Assembly: GCA_012026835.1 (NCBI GenBank)
Contig: VEPN01000015.1
Coordinates: 1 to 64,000, forward strand
Source: Candidatus Methanoperedens sp.
GTDB lineage: Archaea; Halobacteriota; Methanosarcinia; Methanosarcinales; Methanoperedenaceae
Direction: 5' to 3'
Length of the DNA: 64,000 nucleotides
The translations under genes and the position numbers were made by a program. Below, piece after piece: positions 23,835 through 63,883 of the stretch. Every line of letters begins with the position of its first letter. The first letter of the stretch is position 1. The notes under the pieces are model-generated. The model saw only the letters and a list, made by a program, of their open reading frames with translations, was not told the origin of the DNA and searched no databases.

Positions 23835-23995
23835 ACCCGCACTAATTTAATATTGTACCCATTCGTAAATAACATTATCGATTTTATCATCTCAGCCATC
23901 TTGAGTTATTTCGATACCCGTATAACCTTATCAATCTCAAATTGAGAAAAAACACAGAATCAATTAAATACAAAACAAACTATCAAATCAAAAAC

Positions 23996-24523
23996 ATGAC
24001 AATCCAGATAGATGACCAGGGATGGGGTATGCCCGTGGGTGGAGTGGGTATCATCGTGCTTCGAAAAGAAACAGGGGAAGTCCATTATGATATAGTCCCT
24101 ATAAAAAATTTTAATTTAGAGAATTTTAAGAAGAAAAAATATCTCGATAGTGCAAAGGAGATTGTAGAGAAAGGGCTCAACATATTGAAAGTCGGGAAGA
24201 ATGAAGAGATAGAGATATGCTCAGGCAGCATTCATGATAAATCCACTCAGTGGCTGAAAGACGAGGGGTACAAATTCACGGTCATGAAAATCGACGGGCA
24301 GGCCCAGCAAATAGGGGAGAGGCTTTTTACAGAATACCTTCAGAGGCTTGGCGTCCCCCGGCCGCCCCCTATCGTGGAAGAAACCGTGGAAGAATATAAA
24401 GCGCAGTTCTTCTACCTGATGGATTGGGTAAGGGAAGACCTGGCGGGCAGGACGCAATTTTGCAAGACAGGATGGAAGTTTTTCATTAAATTTTTCAGGA
24501 AAAAGAAAATCAAGGTCAGTTGA
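23996..24523 (+). CDS. Archaeal hypothetical protein, possible RNase H-like fold
   Basis: A 175-residue protein from ATG 23996 (MTIQIDDQGWGMPVGGVGII). The opening strand with an Asp pair (QIDDQGWG), the Gly turn, and the later EIEICSGSIHDKSTQWL with KIDGQAQQIGERLF suggest an RNase H-like or related alpha/beta fold. The C-terminus is basic. Four bases upstream of the DUF84 NTPase gene, so probably cotranscribed with it. The function is not known to me. Confidence 0.6.
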   Translation: MTIQIDDQGWGMPVGGVGIIVLRKETGEVHYDIVPIKNFNLENFKKKKYLDSAKEIVEKGLNILKVGKNEEIEICSGSIHDKSTQWLKDEGYKFTVMKIDGQAQQIGERLFTEYLQRLGVPRPPPIVEETVEEYKAQFFYLMDWVREDLAGRTQFCKTGWKFFIKFFRKKKIKVS

Positions 24524-26312: not shown

Positions 26313-26609
26313 ATGGAATCTGTTTATTTCTATGAGGATAAAGTCAGCAAAGATGTAATCAAAGTGCTGGAGGACGATTATTTCAAACGCATAGGTTATA
26401 CGATCAGGGAATGTAAGCTTCTGGGGTCAGAGCGCAAAGGTTATTTCCTGTACCTTAAAGCAAATTCAGAAGAAATTGACCGCGCAGAAGAGAAATTTGA
26501 AGGAATTGGCCTTGAAAAGCTGATAGGTGAAGAAAAGAAGGTAATCACAAAGGCCTTTATAGCGGAAGAGGAGAATGCTGCAAGCGGCATGGGAATGATA
26601 TTCGGTTAG
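26313..26609 (+). CDS. Small hypothetical protein downstream of the aminotransferase
   Basis: A 98-residue acidic protein with alpha-beta character (YFYEDKVSKDVIKVLEDDYF, ERKGYFLYLKANSEEIDRAE). The C-terminus is small-residue-rich (NAASGMGMIFG). The start follows AAGGAAGGAAAAGAATT. Likely cotranscribed with the aminotransferase. No known domain seen. Confidence 0.65.
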   Translation: MESVYFYEDKVSKDVIKVLEDDYFKRIGYTIRECKLLGSERKGYFLYLKANSEEIDRAEEKFEGIGLEKLIGEEKKVITKAFIAEEENAASGMGMIFG

Positions 26610-26642
26610 GGCTTATTTGACTGATTAAAGATTTTTAAGTCC

Positions 26643-27734
26643 TCACACCGTCTTTATTTCAAATCCTTCGAACATCTTTCTCATTATGACATCCTGTATC
26701 GAGCCAAAACCCGGAGTTGCTATCCGTTTCCCATTGAGGTCAGGAATAGAGCTTATATTGGAGTCCGCCCGCACTACGAGCGAAGTACCCCCGGTATTCA
26801 CGCCGTTGATTACGCGTACCTTTCCATTATCATTTACCACGTACCTTAAAACCGGTGTCGCGCCAAATACTGCCGCATCCACTTCACGGTAATGGAGAGC
26901 TGTTGTTATCGCCTGCCCGTTCCTGAAATTGATGAATTGGATATTCCCGTCAGGTATAAGACCTACATTCCTAAAAAAACCTTCTTTCTGTGCCACATAC
27001 AATCCCAGGTTGTGGATATCCCTATCTATAAACCCGAATTTCAGGCTTCCATTAACCGCAGGCGGTACCCAGCCAGGATCAGCTTCAAGCTTGTTTTTTA
27101 TTTCCATATAATATCTGTCAGGGAAAACATTAGAAAGAAACTCGTCCGTGTTCCTGTAACCCATCGAGGAGAGACTCTTTTTGAAGCCTCCGGCTTTATC
27201 AAGTATTTCAAATCCCTTTTTCATTTCGTTCATATCCGGGAATTCAATATAAATGGTGTTATTAATGGCCGCGGAGACGGACGATCTGTCTGCTCCTGTG
27301 AATTCTGAGCCGTATTCCAGAACCTTTTCCCTGTTTGCCGGGTCATTGATAAACCTCGTACTTTTCAAATGCACCCAGATAAGGGCTTTTATCATATCTT
27401 CATCCTGGACGTATTCTGATATTGCCATGACACACTCGGGATGGTTATTCCATATATCCCTGGAATTAACAAGATACCTGCCATAACCATCGACCACTGC
27501 CTTTGCGGGATACGGCTCCCATGAGATGAAGCCCGCTATTGTTCCGTTCTCAAGAGCCGCAGACATCTCATCCGGTGTCATGGAGACAACATATATCGAC
27601 TTTGCGACTGCAGGTTTCACGTTGAGGCTGAAGCCTGCATACAGTAGTATTAGAAATATTGAAATAAATATTATATAAAATACTTTTTGTTTTACTGGCA
27701 AAAGTAATCTACCACCAGATAGTGTAATTTTCAT
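26643..27734 (-). CDS. NMT1/SsuA-type solute-binding protein, order of halves inverted
   Basis: A 363-residue protein anchored by one N-terminal membrane helix (VFYIIFISIFLILLYAGFSL, 19-38). Residues 48-225 match the second half of nitrate/sulfonate/taurine-type binding proteins: VSMTPDEMSAALENGTIAGF, FISWEPYPAKAVV, DIWNNHPECV. Residues 230-363 match the first half: FGFIDRDIHNLGLYVAQKEG, DLNGKRIATPGFGSIQDVIM. The protein stops where the second half should begin. So the domain looks circularly permuted, or is the centre of a tandem duplication trimmed at both ends. No ABC permease or ATPase gene is adjacent. Confidence 0.75.
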   Translation of the reverse strand: MKITLSGGRLLLPVKQKVFYIIFISIFLILLYAGFSLNVKPAVAKSIYVVSMTPDEMSAALENGTIAGFISWEPYPAKAVVDGYGRYLVNSRDIWNNHPECVMAISEYVQDEDMIKALIWVHLKSTRFINDPANREKVLEYGSEFTGADRSSVSAAINNTIYIEFPDMNEMKKGFEILDKAGGFKKSLSSMGYRNTDEFLSNVFPDRYYMEIKNKLEADPGWVPPAVNGSLKFGFIDRDIHNLGLYVAQKEGFFRNVGLIPDGNIQFINFRNGQAITTALHYREVDAAVFGATPVLRYVVNDNGKVRVINGVNTGGTSLVVRADSNISSIPDLNGKRIATPGFGSIQDVIMRKMFEGFEIKTV

Positions 27735-27860
27735 CCATGCTGATGTGATTCCAAAGGGCAGTAATAAGCTTTTCTATCATGACATTACTTACGGAAGTAC
27801 TGACAAGGCACAAAAGTTTATTTAATCCGAGGATAATCTACTATTAAGGAGGTTAGATGT

Positions 27861-29929: not shown

Positions 29930-30427
29930 TCAGTCTTCATCCTTATATTCTATTCTCTTTATTCCCCACTCCTCAAGCTTCTTGAATTCATTATATATCA
30001 AAATTATTCTATCAACACTGCCATTCCAGTGAAGAGTCTTTTTCACATCTTTTTCTTTAAGCTGGCTGACAATAGATTTTACGAAATGGGCAAGGGCGAA
30101 TTTTTTTGAAAATGGGATATTGAAGATAGCCCTGTATCCTCCCTTTGTTTTTGCATAAGACGTCAATACATAGCCCATGTTCTCATATTCGGCTATATTA
30201 TTGAACTCACATATTACCTCCCTTTCATGGTTTACTGAAGAATCGATATTTGATATCCCGAAAATGACCTGCCTTATCAGGGATTCACTGACCTGTCTTC
30301 CGAACCACAAAATAATTTTACCCTGTGTGCATGTGACTGTCATATCATCGCGTCCCATCTCCACAACTGATATTTCCCGTCCTTCATGGAATGTATAGCC
30401 GTTCCCGGGAATCTTTATTTCGCTCAT
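29930..30427 (-). CDS. Conserved-looking protein of unknown function
   Basis: A 165-residue soluble alpha/beta protein, likely cotranscribed with hxlB 11 bases downstream. Segments include GNGYTFHEGREISVVEMG, GKIILWFGRQVSESLIRQVI and GGYRAIFNIPFSKKFALAHF. Charged C-terminal end (KRIEYKDED). No motif recognised. The typical base composition and strong codon structure indicate a native gene. Confidence 0.65.
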   Translation of the reverse strand: MSEIKIPGNGYTFHEGREISVVEMGRDDMTVTCTQGKIILWFGRQVSESLIRQVIFGISNIDSSVNHEREVICEFNNIAEYENMGYVLTSYAKTKGGYRAIFNIPFSKKFALAHFVKSIVSQLKEKDVKKTLHWNGSVDRIILIYNEFKKLEEWGIKRIEYKDED

Positions 30428-60795: not shown

Positions 60796-61200
60796 TTAAT
60801 TTTTGGTCACTTGTCTGTCTCTTAAACCTGTTAATTTTCTTACCCTGTCTATTAATTCATTTTTCCCGAAAGGTTTTGTTATATAATCATCGGCTTTTAA
60901 TACATGCAGTCCCAGGAACTTATCTATGTTTTGTGCTTTCGCAGACAGGATTGCGATTGGAATCTTCGGTTCCTTTTCCTTCATTTTCCTGAATACATCC
61001 CATCCATCCATGTCTGGCATCATAATGTCAAGAAGAACCAGATCGGGTCTTGAAGTGCCGATCTTCGCTAATGCATCCTTTCCACTTGAAGCCTGCAGGG
61101 TTCTAAAACCTTCTCTTTCCAGCACCAATTTGACAAGTTCAAGCGTATCAGGTTCATCATCAACTATCAGCACTTTTTTATCTGGTGCGTTCTCTTTCAT
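60796..61200 (-). CDS. Response regulator (receiver domain only)
   Basis: A 134-residue protein from ATG 61200 with GGAGAATGT upstream; a longer frame to 61284 overlaps the kinase gene more. Receiver domain: D14-D15 in VLIVDDEPD, phosphoacceptor D58 in DLVLLDIMMPDMDGWDVF, and K109 in YITKPF. No output domain, so it signals by protein contact. It overlaps the sensor kinase gene by 23 bases, its likely partner. Confidence 0.93.
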   Translation of the reverse strand: MKENAPDKKVLIVDDEPDTLELVKLVLEREGFRTLQASSGKDALAKIGTSRPDLVLLDIMMPDMDGWDVFRKMKEKEPKIPIAILSAKAQNIDKFLGLHVLKADDYITKPFGKNELIDRVRKLTGLRDRQVTKN

Positions 61201-63883
61201 ACATTCTCCGTTCAGGTAATAAAATATGAAAGGTACTCCCTGTATTTTTACTTTCCGCCCAGATCTTACCTCCGTGAGCTTCAATTATATTTTTTGAAAC
61301 CCATAAGCTCAAGCCTGTACCACCATATTTTCGGGTATCGGATGACTCCAGGTGATAGAATTTATCAAATATGGATTTAAGTTTATCCTCTGGAATACCA
61401 ACCCCAGTATCGCTTATCTTAATATGTGCGTAATCTTTCTCTTCGTTGGCTGTTATTTTTATTTCTCCTTTTATTGTAAATTTGATAGCATTATCCAGAA
61501 TATAAGAGAGAACCTGTGTCAGCCTGTTCCTATCGCCTTCAATTGTCAGGGAAGGCGATATTTCGATAGACACCGGGATATTCTTTATCGACGACATGCC
61601 TCTCATATCTTCTGCAGCCAGTACCGCTATGTCATATATAGATAACATTTGTATGTCGAGCTGAAGATTACTGGACTCGATAAGAGTCGAATCAAGCAAC
61701 CTGTTTATTAGCATGGATAAACGTTTTGAATTCCGAAGGATTATCTCAAGTTTCTGTCTCTGTTCTTCAGTGATATTTTCATCAAGCATAAGCTCTGTAT
61801 ACCCCATGATCGATGTTAGCGGTGTCCTGAGTTCATGTGACATGTTTGAAAGGAAACTGTCTTTCATTCGAAAAAGTTCCTTGAGTTTCATATATGTCAG
61901 CTTCAGCTCGTCATAAGAATCTTTAAGTTCTTCTTCAAGTTTTTTCTGGCTTGAAACATCTTTTATAACTGTAATGACCCTTTCAACATTGCCATTTTTG
62001 TCTTTGAGAGGTATTTTGGCAGTGCTGGTAAAAATGAGTTCGCCATAATACTCTATCTTTTCTTCACTCATGAAAGTTTCTCCGGTCTCGAATACGTGTT
62101 CATATTCCATATCTATATGTTTTGCTTTCAATATCGGGAAAGCTTCAAAGAGGTTCATATTCAGTATTTGTTCTTTCTTAAACATACCCCTGCTCAGGTT
62201 AAGCAACTCTTTATTAATAGCCAGGATCTTCATATCCTTATCAATCACATGGATTGCCAGGTTAACATTGTTTAAGATTTCTTCGTTAAAATCTTTTAAG
62301 TATTTTATATTATTATAAAAAGAGATATTTTGTATTGCTACGCCGACCTGGTTTCCGATTGCAGAAAAAAGTTCCTGATATTTAGGTGAAAATGTACGAG
62401 GCTCACTGTTATATAATTTTATTATGCCAAGAACTTTATCTTTTGATCTAAGAGGTATGTCCAGACATAAAAAACCGACAGACCTTTCATGATTGTCTGT
62501 ACCTGTAGTTTTTTGCATATTCTGGAGAAACAGGGCATCATTTGATTTTATGACATGTGGCAGTGTTTTTCCTGAAACATTCTCATTTATTCCGATATGA
62601 ATTCTCAGGTTGAAGTTCCCGCTGTTCTCATCCATGATATATGCTTCCCCGCTTTCCATCTTTGCAAGACTTAACAGATTTTCAAGTATTTGCAACAGTA
62701 GTTTATCCAGATCAAATGTATCACTTATACTTTTGGATATTTCATTAATTACTGTAAGCTCCCTGTTTCGTGTCACAAGCTCTTCTTCAAGCATTTTTTG
62801 TTGTGTTATGTCTCTTGAGACAAGTATTATATTTATGAGATTTTTTTTATCTGAAAAAAAAGAAGCGTTCAACTCCAGTATTTTTTTAGTACCGTCAGAA
62901 TATGTTTCATGTACTATCCTGATAGGATTTTTTGTTTCCAGTATTCTGTTAACCGGGCATTCCTTTTTTTCCTGCCATGTTGCTACATCTTTAAAGATCA
63001 GGTCATGGCAGGTTTTTCCCAGTACCTCGCGTTCACTCATACCAATCATTTTCAGAAAGGATTTGTTCGTCCTGATGATTTCATGGTTCAGATTTATGAC
63101 TATTATCCCGTCCTCAATACTATTAAACAAGGTTTCAAGATATTTTTGTGCAGTCTCTACTTCTTCTTTTGACGCAACCAAGTCTGTAATTTTCTGGTTC
63201 AACCTCGCAGCCATTCCATTGAAGGTTCTGGCAAGATCGCCAAGCTCGTCTTGTGAGGTAATTTGAATTTTCTGGTCAAGAATCCCGTTGTTTATCCTGT
63301 TCGCCCCTTCTGTAAGTTCCAGGATGGGCCTGGTCAGCCATCTACCGATGAAATAAATAAACAGGCCTCCCAGAGACATTGCCGAAAGGGATAGTAAAAG
63401 TAATTTCCGTGACGCATCAAGAATCTGTAATCTCACCCTGTTCTCGGACACCCCGATATGGACGTAACCGATGTTTTTGAAAATAGGGACACTAAATTCA
63501 TGTATAATCCCTTTTTCAGTATCAAAAACATACTCTTTCATTTCATTTGAAGGTTTACTCATGTCCTGGAGAGCTTCCGGGAACCCTCCCTCAAATGTGT
63601 TCACCAGGATTATTCCCTGAGAATCTACAACATAAATATATTCTATATCATGGTAATTTTCCCTCAAAGAATCAATAGAATCCCTGATACCCATTATGTC
63701 ATTTACGAGTATCGGGTCTGTAATTTCAGATGCAAGGTTATTGGCTAATAAAAATCCCCTATCGCGGAACTCACCTTCAATGATACCGGCCTGGATATCC
63801 TGAATGACTAAATATGAACCTGTCATTATCAGGAACATTATAAAAAGAGTCGAGATAATTATCCGGAAGCGCAGGCTTATCAT
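61178..63883 (-). CDS. Membrane hybrid sensor histidine kinase (HAMP-PAS-GAF-PAS-HisKA)
   Basis: A 901-residue protein. Two membrane helices (about 8-28 and 160-182) bracket an outside sensor region; HAMP (183-235) then PAS (about 255-370), GAF (395-530) and PAS (540-650). Dimerisation/His box SFLSNMSHELRTPLTSIMGY, N box ILDNAIKFTI, G1 ISDTGVGIPEDKLKS and G2 YGGTGLSLWVSKNI. The frame ends after the ATPase with RRMYERERTR. It overlaps by four bases (ATGA) with the upstream gene, and the response regulator follows. Confidence 0.93.
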   Translation of the reverse strand: MISLRFRIIISTLFIMFLIMTGSYLVIQDIQAGIIEGEFRDRGFLLANNLASEITDPILVNDIMGIRDSIDSLRENYHDIEYIYVVDSQGIILVNTFEGGFPEALQDMSKPSNEMKEYVFDTEKGIIHEFSVPIFKNIGYVHIGVSENRVRLQILDASRKLLLLSLSAMSLGGLFIYFIGRWLTRPILELTEGANRINNGILDQKIQITSQDELGDLARTFNGMAARLNQKITDLVASKEEVETAQKYLETLFNSIEDGIIVINLNHEIIRTNKSFLKMIGMSEREVLGKTCHDLIFKDVATWQEKKECPVNRILETKNPIRIVHETYSDGTKKILELNASFFSDKKNLINIILVSRDITQQKMLEEELVTRNRELTVINEISKSISDTFDLDKLLLQILENLLSLAKMESGEAYIMDENSGNFNLRIHIGINENVSGKTLPHVIKSNDALFLQNMQKTTGTDNHERSVGFLCLDIPLRSKDKVLGIIKLYNSEPRTFSPKYQELFSAIGNQVGVAIQNISFYNNIKYLKDFNEEILNNVNLAIHVIDKDMKILAINKELLNLSRGMFKKEQILNMNLFEAFPILKAKHIDMEYEHVFETGETFMSEEKIEYYGELIFTSTAKIPLKDKNGNVERVITVIKDVSSQKKLEEELKDSYDELKLTYMKLKELFRMKDSFLSNMSHELRTPLTSIMGYTELMLDENITEEQRQKLEIILRNSKRLSMLINRLLDSTLIESSNLQLDIQMLSIYDIAVLAAEDMRGMSSIKNIPVSIEISPSLTIEGDRNRLTQVLSYILDNAIKFTIKGEIKITANEEKDYAHIKISDTGVGIPEDKLKSIFDKFYHLESSDTRKYGGTGLSLWVSKNIIEAHGGKIWAESKNTGSTFHILLPERRMYERERTR

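Follow-up and report, generated by a model that had tools for sequence, protein, structure and literature searches.

The window, a stretch of 64,000 nucleotides of Methanoperedens DNA, carries on its minus strand a gene that runs from an ATG start through its stop codon and encodes a solute-binding protein (SBP) of the NMT1/SsuA type, whose parts are listed in Table 1. The neighbours of the gene include an Aminotran_5 gene, a 98-aa ORF and an Aminotran_1_2 gene. No transporter gene adjoins it, as the earlier note on this DNA had reported, and no histidine kinase or regulator gene adjoins it either. Three ORFs of the window, at 23942-24523, 26313-26609 and 29930-30427, gave no Pfam match at E 1e-4.

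Table 1. Position of the SBP gene and its parts within the window
Feature	Position	Strand	Basis or remark
Circularly permuted NMT1/SsuA-type solute-binding protein (SBP)	26643..27734	-	complete ORF, 363 aa + stop
New N-terminal transmembrane anchor, aa 14-37, no lipobox cysteine	27624..27695	-	AlphaFold2 model helix
Old C-terminal half, now first, aa 45-225	27060..27602	-	NMT1_2 and normal-order HMM matches
New linker, old C-terminus to old N-terminus, ~aa 219-230	27045..27080	-	model and best rotation point aa 216
Old N-terminal half, now second, aa 230-363	26646..27047	-	NMT1, SsuA_fam, joint alignment at the cut

Reversed order of the two halves

Comparison with family profiles revealed that both halves of the window protein match NMT1/SsuA-type SBPs (PF13379, PF09084, TIGR01728) by sequence, but that their order is reversed. 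Positions 150-248 of Pfam NMT1_2 correspond to aa 41-139, while positions 5-116 of NMT1 correspond to aa 243-359, and the scores of 88.8 bits for PF13379 and 46.2 bits for PF09084 lie well above the gathering thresholds of 24.7 and 20.5. The SsuA_fam model TIGR01728 also matches in two stretches, the best of which pairs aa 240-352 with positions 9-120 of 290; with 99.6 bits in the two stretches and a cut-off of 163.5, a collinear match over the whole model was not reached. An HMM built from 11 normal-order archaeal SBPs placed its positions 165-328 at 27093-27602 of the window and its positions 36-162 at 26652-27050, which is the reversed order along the minus strand. When PDB sequences (NrtA, CmpC, SsuA and others) were compared with the window protein, the best stretch covered one half only, mainly about aa 44-143 in the top ones. 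Solved NMT1/SsuA-type relatives include NrtA (2g29), a bicarbonate-transporter protein (2i48) and SsuA (2x26).

Rotation of the chain gave the same picture. When the window protein was rotated at aa 216, its best single-domain score with the 11-sequence HMM rose to 175.7 bits, from 87.4 bits for a domain that begins at aa 41 of the native chain. In single-path Smith-Waterman alignments with these 11 SBPs, the score was 148 for the native chain and 244 for the rejoined halves, with 131 and 132 for the halves taken separately; the shuffled controls (n=50) had a mean of 35.0 and a maximum of 40.3. The reversal proposed in the earlier note is thus borne out by Pfam, by SsuA_fam, by the 11-sequence HMM and by rotation.

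The cut shared by the permuted family separates the GFGSIQDVIMRKMF helix from the IYVVSM strand. The joint alignment at this point indicated that the permuted C-terminus GFGSIQDVIMRKMFEGFEIKTV and the N-terminus KSIYVVSMTPDEM tile onto a stretch that is unbroken in normal-order proteins, as in GPGSIQDVMLRKLLADNGISYD-KDVNVVTIPAGQM of one such SBP (L195). The two halves therefore form exactly one domain, newly cut, with single-domain length, exact tiling and nothing lost at the cut, just as had been suggested. The old N-terminal half ends past the first strand-helix unit of the expected lobe 2. In a search of all six frames of the window, the only additional NMT1-like stretch had an E value of 0.62, so that missing halves do not lie beside the ORF.

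In AlphaFold2 models of the native, permuted order, the window protein reached a pLDDT of 92.5 and an ABC-type relative from clade B, a group described below, one of 88.6. In the window model, no regular structure is predicted from the helix at aa 207-218 to the strand at aa 231-236, and the membrane anchor that had been expected at the new N-terminus appears as a helix. Structure searches with this model returned weak collinear matches, with query-normalised TM values of at most 0.38 among the matches listed and a best VIA-align Z of 9.4, and no close solved fold was found by them. Structures of AioX/ArrX-type receptors, which are SBPs acting on kinases, appear among the VIA-align matches. 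As far as a predicted model can be compared, the weakness of the collinear matches is consistent with a permuted topology.

The first Foldseek match was B. subtilis OpuAC (E 9.9e-06), and the cited part of PMC2395249 counts glycine-betaine-binding proteins, 2b4l among them, as circular-permutation relatives, which would make membership in the already permuted type-II OpuAC (glycine-betaine) family one way to account for the window protein. Such membership is extremely unlikely: both halves match NMT1-type profiles, the query-normalised TM for the OpuAC match is 0.33-0.38, and OpuAC is absent from the four Pfam families listed for the protein at E values up to 10. The two cases are alike in that SBPs are related by circular permutation, but in the OpuAC group the permutation links remote proteins of less than 24% identity, going by the same part of PMC2395249, whereas here it lies inside one family. 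A sequence relation between the window protein and the OpuAC/glycine-betaine group was not detected in this analysis.

The permuted family and its common cut

The search for homologues with the same cut site yielded 77 permuted proteins (the window protein included), which fall into three groups. Clade A consists of 35 proteins with 57-100% identity to the window protein (itself counted), clade B of 18 proteins with 27-31% identity (pairwise BLAST), and clade C of 24 more distant full-length permuted proteins newly found in a profile search of the phylum (392 genomes, E 1e-20). Members of clades A and B, from a search of 60 related genomes, match the window protein nearly end to end; their counts cover the fetched loci only, further clade-A and clade-B matches among the 60 genomes being left out. 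The 35 clade-A proteins are exclusive of frame-split or fragmentary copies (G013, G004:C12, G016:C19, G017:C43 and G017:C5), and the clade-C count leaves out the 164-aa contig-edge fragment L194_5 and L176_4. Of the 31 genomes of the genus, 25 contain clade A (in G013 as a copy broken across two frames) and 23 contain clade B. The genome of the window itself holds a paralogue on contig C31, which is 62% identical to the window protein across aa 16-363 and hence has the same half order, together with normal-order SBPs on contigs C54, C100 and C101.

A scan of the genome_contigs collection with patterns from close relatives found 54 loci, every one of them from a record titled Methanoperedens or its family, ANME-2, Methanosarcinales, Euryarchaeota or uncultured archaeon. 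The phylum search matched 32 genomes, comprising 28 with a full-length permuted protein, one with a permuted protein cut by the contig end (G337) and three with a normal-order SBP (G067, G076 and G085). No relative was found in viral_contigs. Among bacterial plasmids, 93 records matched an Archaeoglobus-like permuted protein, and the top match (H1) has the normal order.

The homologues are 324-430 aa long, each with its own N-terminal anchor and all with a common end point; the two longest clade-C proteins (396 and 430 aa) have apparently over-extended gene starts. This single-domain length and shared end rule out the reading that the earlier note had itself raised against a permutation, namely that the window protein is the truncated middle of a tandem two-domain protein. 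The earlier note had offered duplication followed by trimming as a possible route to the permutation, but no tandem intermediate was found among the sequences examined. The 292-aa SBP next to a permuted gene at one locus (L176), considered as such an intermediate, proved to be a normal-order SsuA-like protein beside coenzyme M genes, with no signal peptide discernible by eye.

When the halves were rejoined in normal order, the Smith-Waterman score rose in every permuted protein (35/35 in clade A, 18/18 in clade B and 24/24 in clade C), with a lowest ratio of 1.18 among the 77, and in none of the 33 normal-order controls. With an HMM from 33 sequences, rotation was of no help: the median for clade A moved from 76.9 to 77.3 bits, and a gain above 20 bits was seen in 2/35 proteins of clade A, 0/18 of clade B and 4/24 of clade C, apparently because hmmsearch divided the rejoined chain into two domains.

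Analysis of a whole-protein tree, a quick tree with long branches flagged that comprised 85 rows (19 of the 35 clade-A, 9 of the 18 clade-B and all 24 clade-C proteins, with 33 normal-order SBPs), showed one branch parting permuted from normal-order rows (support 100). Clade A forms a single branch (100) and is drawn among ABC-linked lineages of clade C, support being weaker at that depth. In the trees of single halves (37 rows), the permuted and normal-order proteins were again parted by one branch, with support of 97 and 100. As the whole protein and the separate halves all show this single dividing branch, the two halves have a common history. These trees bear on a fusion in reverse order of halves from different SBPs, whose end product could in principle be identical to that of a permutation within one gene and whose counterpart, a part taken over from a different gene, was considered by the authors of a study of Treponema pallidum MglB-2 (in the portion of PMC4990184 cited). 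Such a fusion is improbable here, as each half on its own sets the permuted proteins apart by a single branch, with inner groups that agree between the halves, and the archaeal normal-order family matched by the one half is matched about as well by the other, at the separate scores given above. With the same cut in all 77 aligned permuted relatives, exact tiling, single-domain length and a confidently predicted fold, it is virtually certain that the window protein is a circular permutant. To judge from the sequences, the permutation is apparently common to the whole family with a single origin, and it is probably old.

Importer and kinase neighbourhoods

Most clade-B and clade-C genes lie in importer operons. 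A permease and an ATPase gene follow directly downstream at 23 of 24 clade-C and 14 of 18 clade-B loci (Pfam assignments for one representative), and a divergent HTH regulator is located within two genes upstream at 14 of 24 and 6 of 18 loci, respectively. Two of the normal-order SBPs from the phylum search (G085 and G076) have the same layout as the permuted importers, with the regulator (HTH) divergent from an SBP, permease and ATPase series; the third (G067) has a regulator and an ATPase beside it, its permease slot being not resolvable in the gene calls. Among eight nearer normal-order loci, the permease and ATPase come next in seven and a regulator is found in three (L089, L095 and L096). 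The importer layout shared by permuted and normal-order SBPs makes the importer the likely setting of the permutation, and ancestry of the permuted form in an ABC importer is highly probable. As most of the distant relatives are ABC-importer proteins, the permutation is not tied to a sensor role. The regulator divergent to permuted and normal-order importers is an HTH_3 protein of about 175 aa (L072:4736-5254 (-) and L170:4767-5297 (-)), the C-terminal part of which has no Pfam match; the L170 copy has no NCBIfam match either.

Clade A presents a different arrangement. Its genes lie directly behind a dCache histidine kinase gene at 32 of 35 loci, the SBP start being separated from the kinase end by -46 to +9 bp. 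A representative kinase contains dCache_1, HAMP (just below the cut-off), HisKA and HATPase_c domains in Pfam, and upstream of it lie a response regulator with HTH and receiver (Response_reg) domains and a protein of about 110 aa without a Pfam match, whose sequence reads like that of a winged-helix regulator. The lipobox cysteine, the usual anchor of archaeal SBPs, is present in 18/18 clade-B and 20/24 clade-C proteins by a strict pattern and in 0/35 of clade A. These features suggest that clade A probably works as a sensor receptor. The earlier note had guessed at a sensor, and this holds for the clade, in which the C31 paralogue also adjoins a dCache histidine kinase, but not in the same way for the window copy, which has no such neighbour. 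Two clade-B lipoprotein SBPs also occur without ABC genes: one (L071:580-4824) lies opposite genes for a dCache-GAF protein and a MEDS-HisKA kinase, and the other (L074) opposite a gene from the same kinase cluster. They are possibly a second, separate move into signalling.

The clade-A loci without a kinase directly upstream are those of the window copy, its 91%-identical orthologue in another genome (G011), where the regulators are retained and the kinase is missing, and L043. DNA similarity between the window and the G011 locus extends over 26600-27779 and ends about 45 bp beyond the ORF on both sides, as if the gene had been relocated singly. This loss of operon context, together with the frame-split relative in G013 and the fragments in G004, G016 and G017, would fit a pseudogene-like copy that is decaying or has been relocated, or else an artefact of assembly or truncation. 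That explanation is very improbable, given an intact ORF, an intact 91%-identical copy in another genome and the same order in 77 proteins. Comparison of the window copy with this orthologue gave a dN of 0.044 and a dS of 0.372 (dN/dS ~0.12); a kinase-linked pair gave 0.036/0.327, and this resemblance indicates that the window copy is maintained by purifying selection.

Since no kinase or regulator adjoins the window copy, its role has to be read from its relatives. One kinase of the family linked to clade A was found in the same genome at E 1e-60, on contig C31, and the orphan might most simply function by sharing it; a sensor role of this particular copy stands at about an even chance. The protein could instead serve an ABC importer encoded elsewhere, or shared with another SBP, with the kinase link of its relatives being incidental. 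Clade-B and clade-C relatives adjoin permease and ATPase genes, the same genome has NMT1-type ABC operons on C54, C100 and C101, and the window copy lacks a kinase beside it, all of which would suit such an importer subunit. This role is nevertheless unlikely, as the window protein sits within the kinase-linked branch (support 100), lacks the lipobox like every other member, and belongs to a genome in which no clade-B importer was found among the matches. A pair comprising a generic histidine kinase core and a response regulator is also encoded at 60832-62011 (-) of the window, about 33 kb from the SBP gene; the domains concerned are 35-44% identical to those of the clade-A kinase and regulator.

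Proposed history, parallels and ligand

On balance, it is likely that an SBP of an ABC importer underwent circular permutation long ago and was later recruited as an extracytoplasmic receptor of a two-component system, the window copy being an orphan of the recruited clade. The permutation would have arisen within an archaeal ABC-importer operon. Type-II SBPs usually carry their N-terminal anchor on lobe 1, and the new N-terminus of the window protein begins in the expected lobe 2, so the permutation would have left the two-lobed cleft intact but transferred the membrane tether from the first lobe to the second. In one branch of the Methanoperedens/ANME-2 lineage, a transmembrane helix would then have replaced the lipid anchor, and the gene would have come to lie directly behind those for a kinase (dCache-HAMP-HisKA-HATPase) and a response regulator (HTH-REC). 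Most likely, ligand binding outside the membrane closes the clade-A SBP, and its docking on the dCache domain switches the kinase. The window copy would have lost its kinase neighbour while being kept by selection, and may feed the C31 kinase.

The kind itself is not new, as naturally circularly permuted proteins are known from other SBP classes. According to the cited part of PMC4990184, MglB-2 (Tp0684) of T. pallidum is a circularly permuted glucose-binding protein ('type Ic') that is membrane-tethered and was proposed to serve as chemoreceptor and importer subunit, and its authors suggested that the permutation is perhaps an adaptation to tethering. As described there, MglB-2 resembles the present family in being a natural, membrane-tethered SBP permutant, and differs in being a bacterial protein of type I fold from another family, with three N-lobe strands moved to the end. 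The pairing of clade A with a sensor kinase has likely analogues in BctC-BctE and XylFII-LytS, in which ligand-loaded SBPs act on the extracytoplasmic domain of a kinase (PMC9602780); in the passages cited these are not described as permuted, whereas clade A has a dCache kinase and an archaeal host. Literature searches, judged by title and abstract opening, found no paper on a permuted NMT1/SsuA family, and neither the family, nor a before-and-after comparison in one gene layout, nor a switch from importer to kinase was found described in the literature searched.

The natural circular permutation described here can be compared directly with normal-order SBPs that occupy an equivalent gene layout; on the tree it goes back to a single origin, and a switch of partner, from an importer to a kinase, followed later. 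The family thereby provides an independent case for testing whether a lobe-swapped tether matters, a question left open by the MglB-2 authors in the cited part of PMC4990184. It also represents an SBP family present across the phylum that collinear profiles under-score, and a candidate nutrient or metabolite sensor of the methane oxidiser Methanoperedens. A wider reading, in which one ancient permutation reached Archaeoglobus-like, ANME-2 and other Halobacteriota and re-tethering enabled re-use as a sensor in parallel to MglB-2, is possible but doubtful.

The ligand class can be proposed only tentatively, from gene neighbourhoods in a handful of distant genomes, as a small anion (for example an organosulfonate) or else some other anionic or methylated compound. 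One permuted importer (G202, L176:1615-5939, contig C3) lies directly behind genes for a cysteate synthase, a sulfopyruvate decarboxylase fusion and a normal-order SsuA_fam protein, and these coenzyme M genes are a possible hint at an organosulfonate ligand. At five clade-C loci (L180, L183, L184, L186 and L188) the permuted importer lies behind an MtrH-like gene. At one of these (L180:696-5296, genome G080), it is preceded by genes for an MtaA-like methyltransferase, a corrinoid protein and an AcsV-like corrinoid activator, and the methyl-transfer system may share its substrate with permuted importers of this type.
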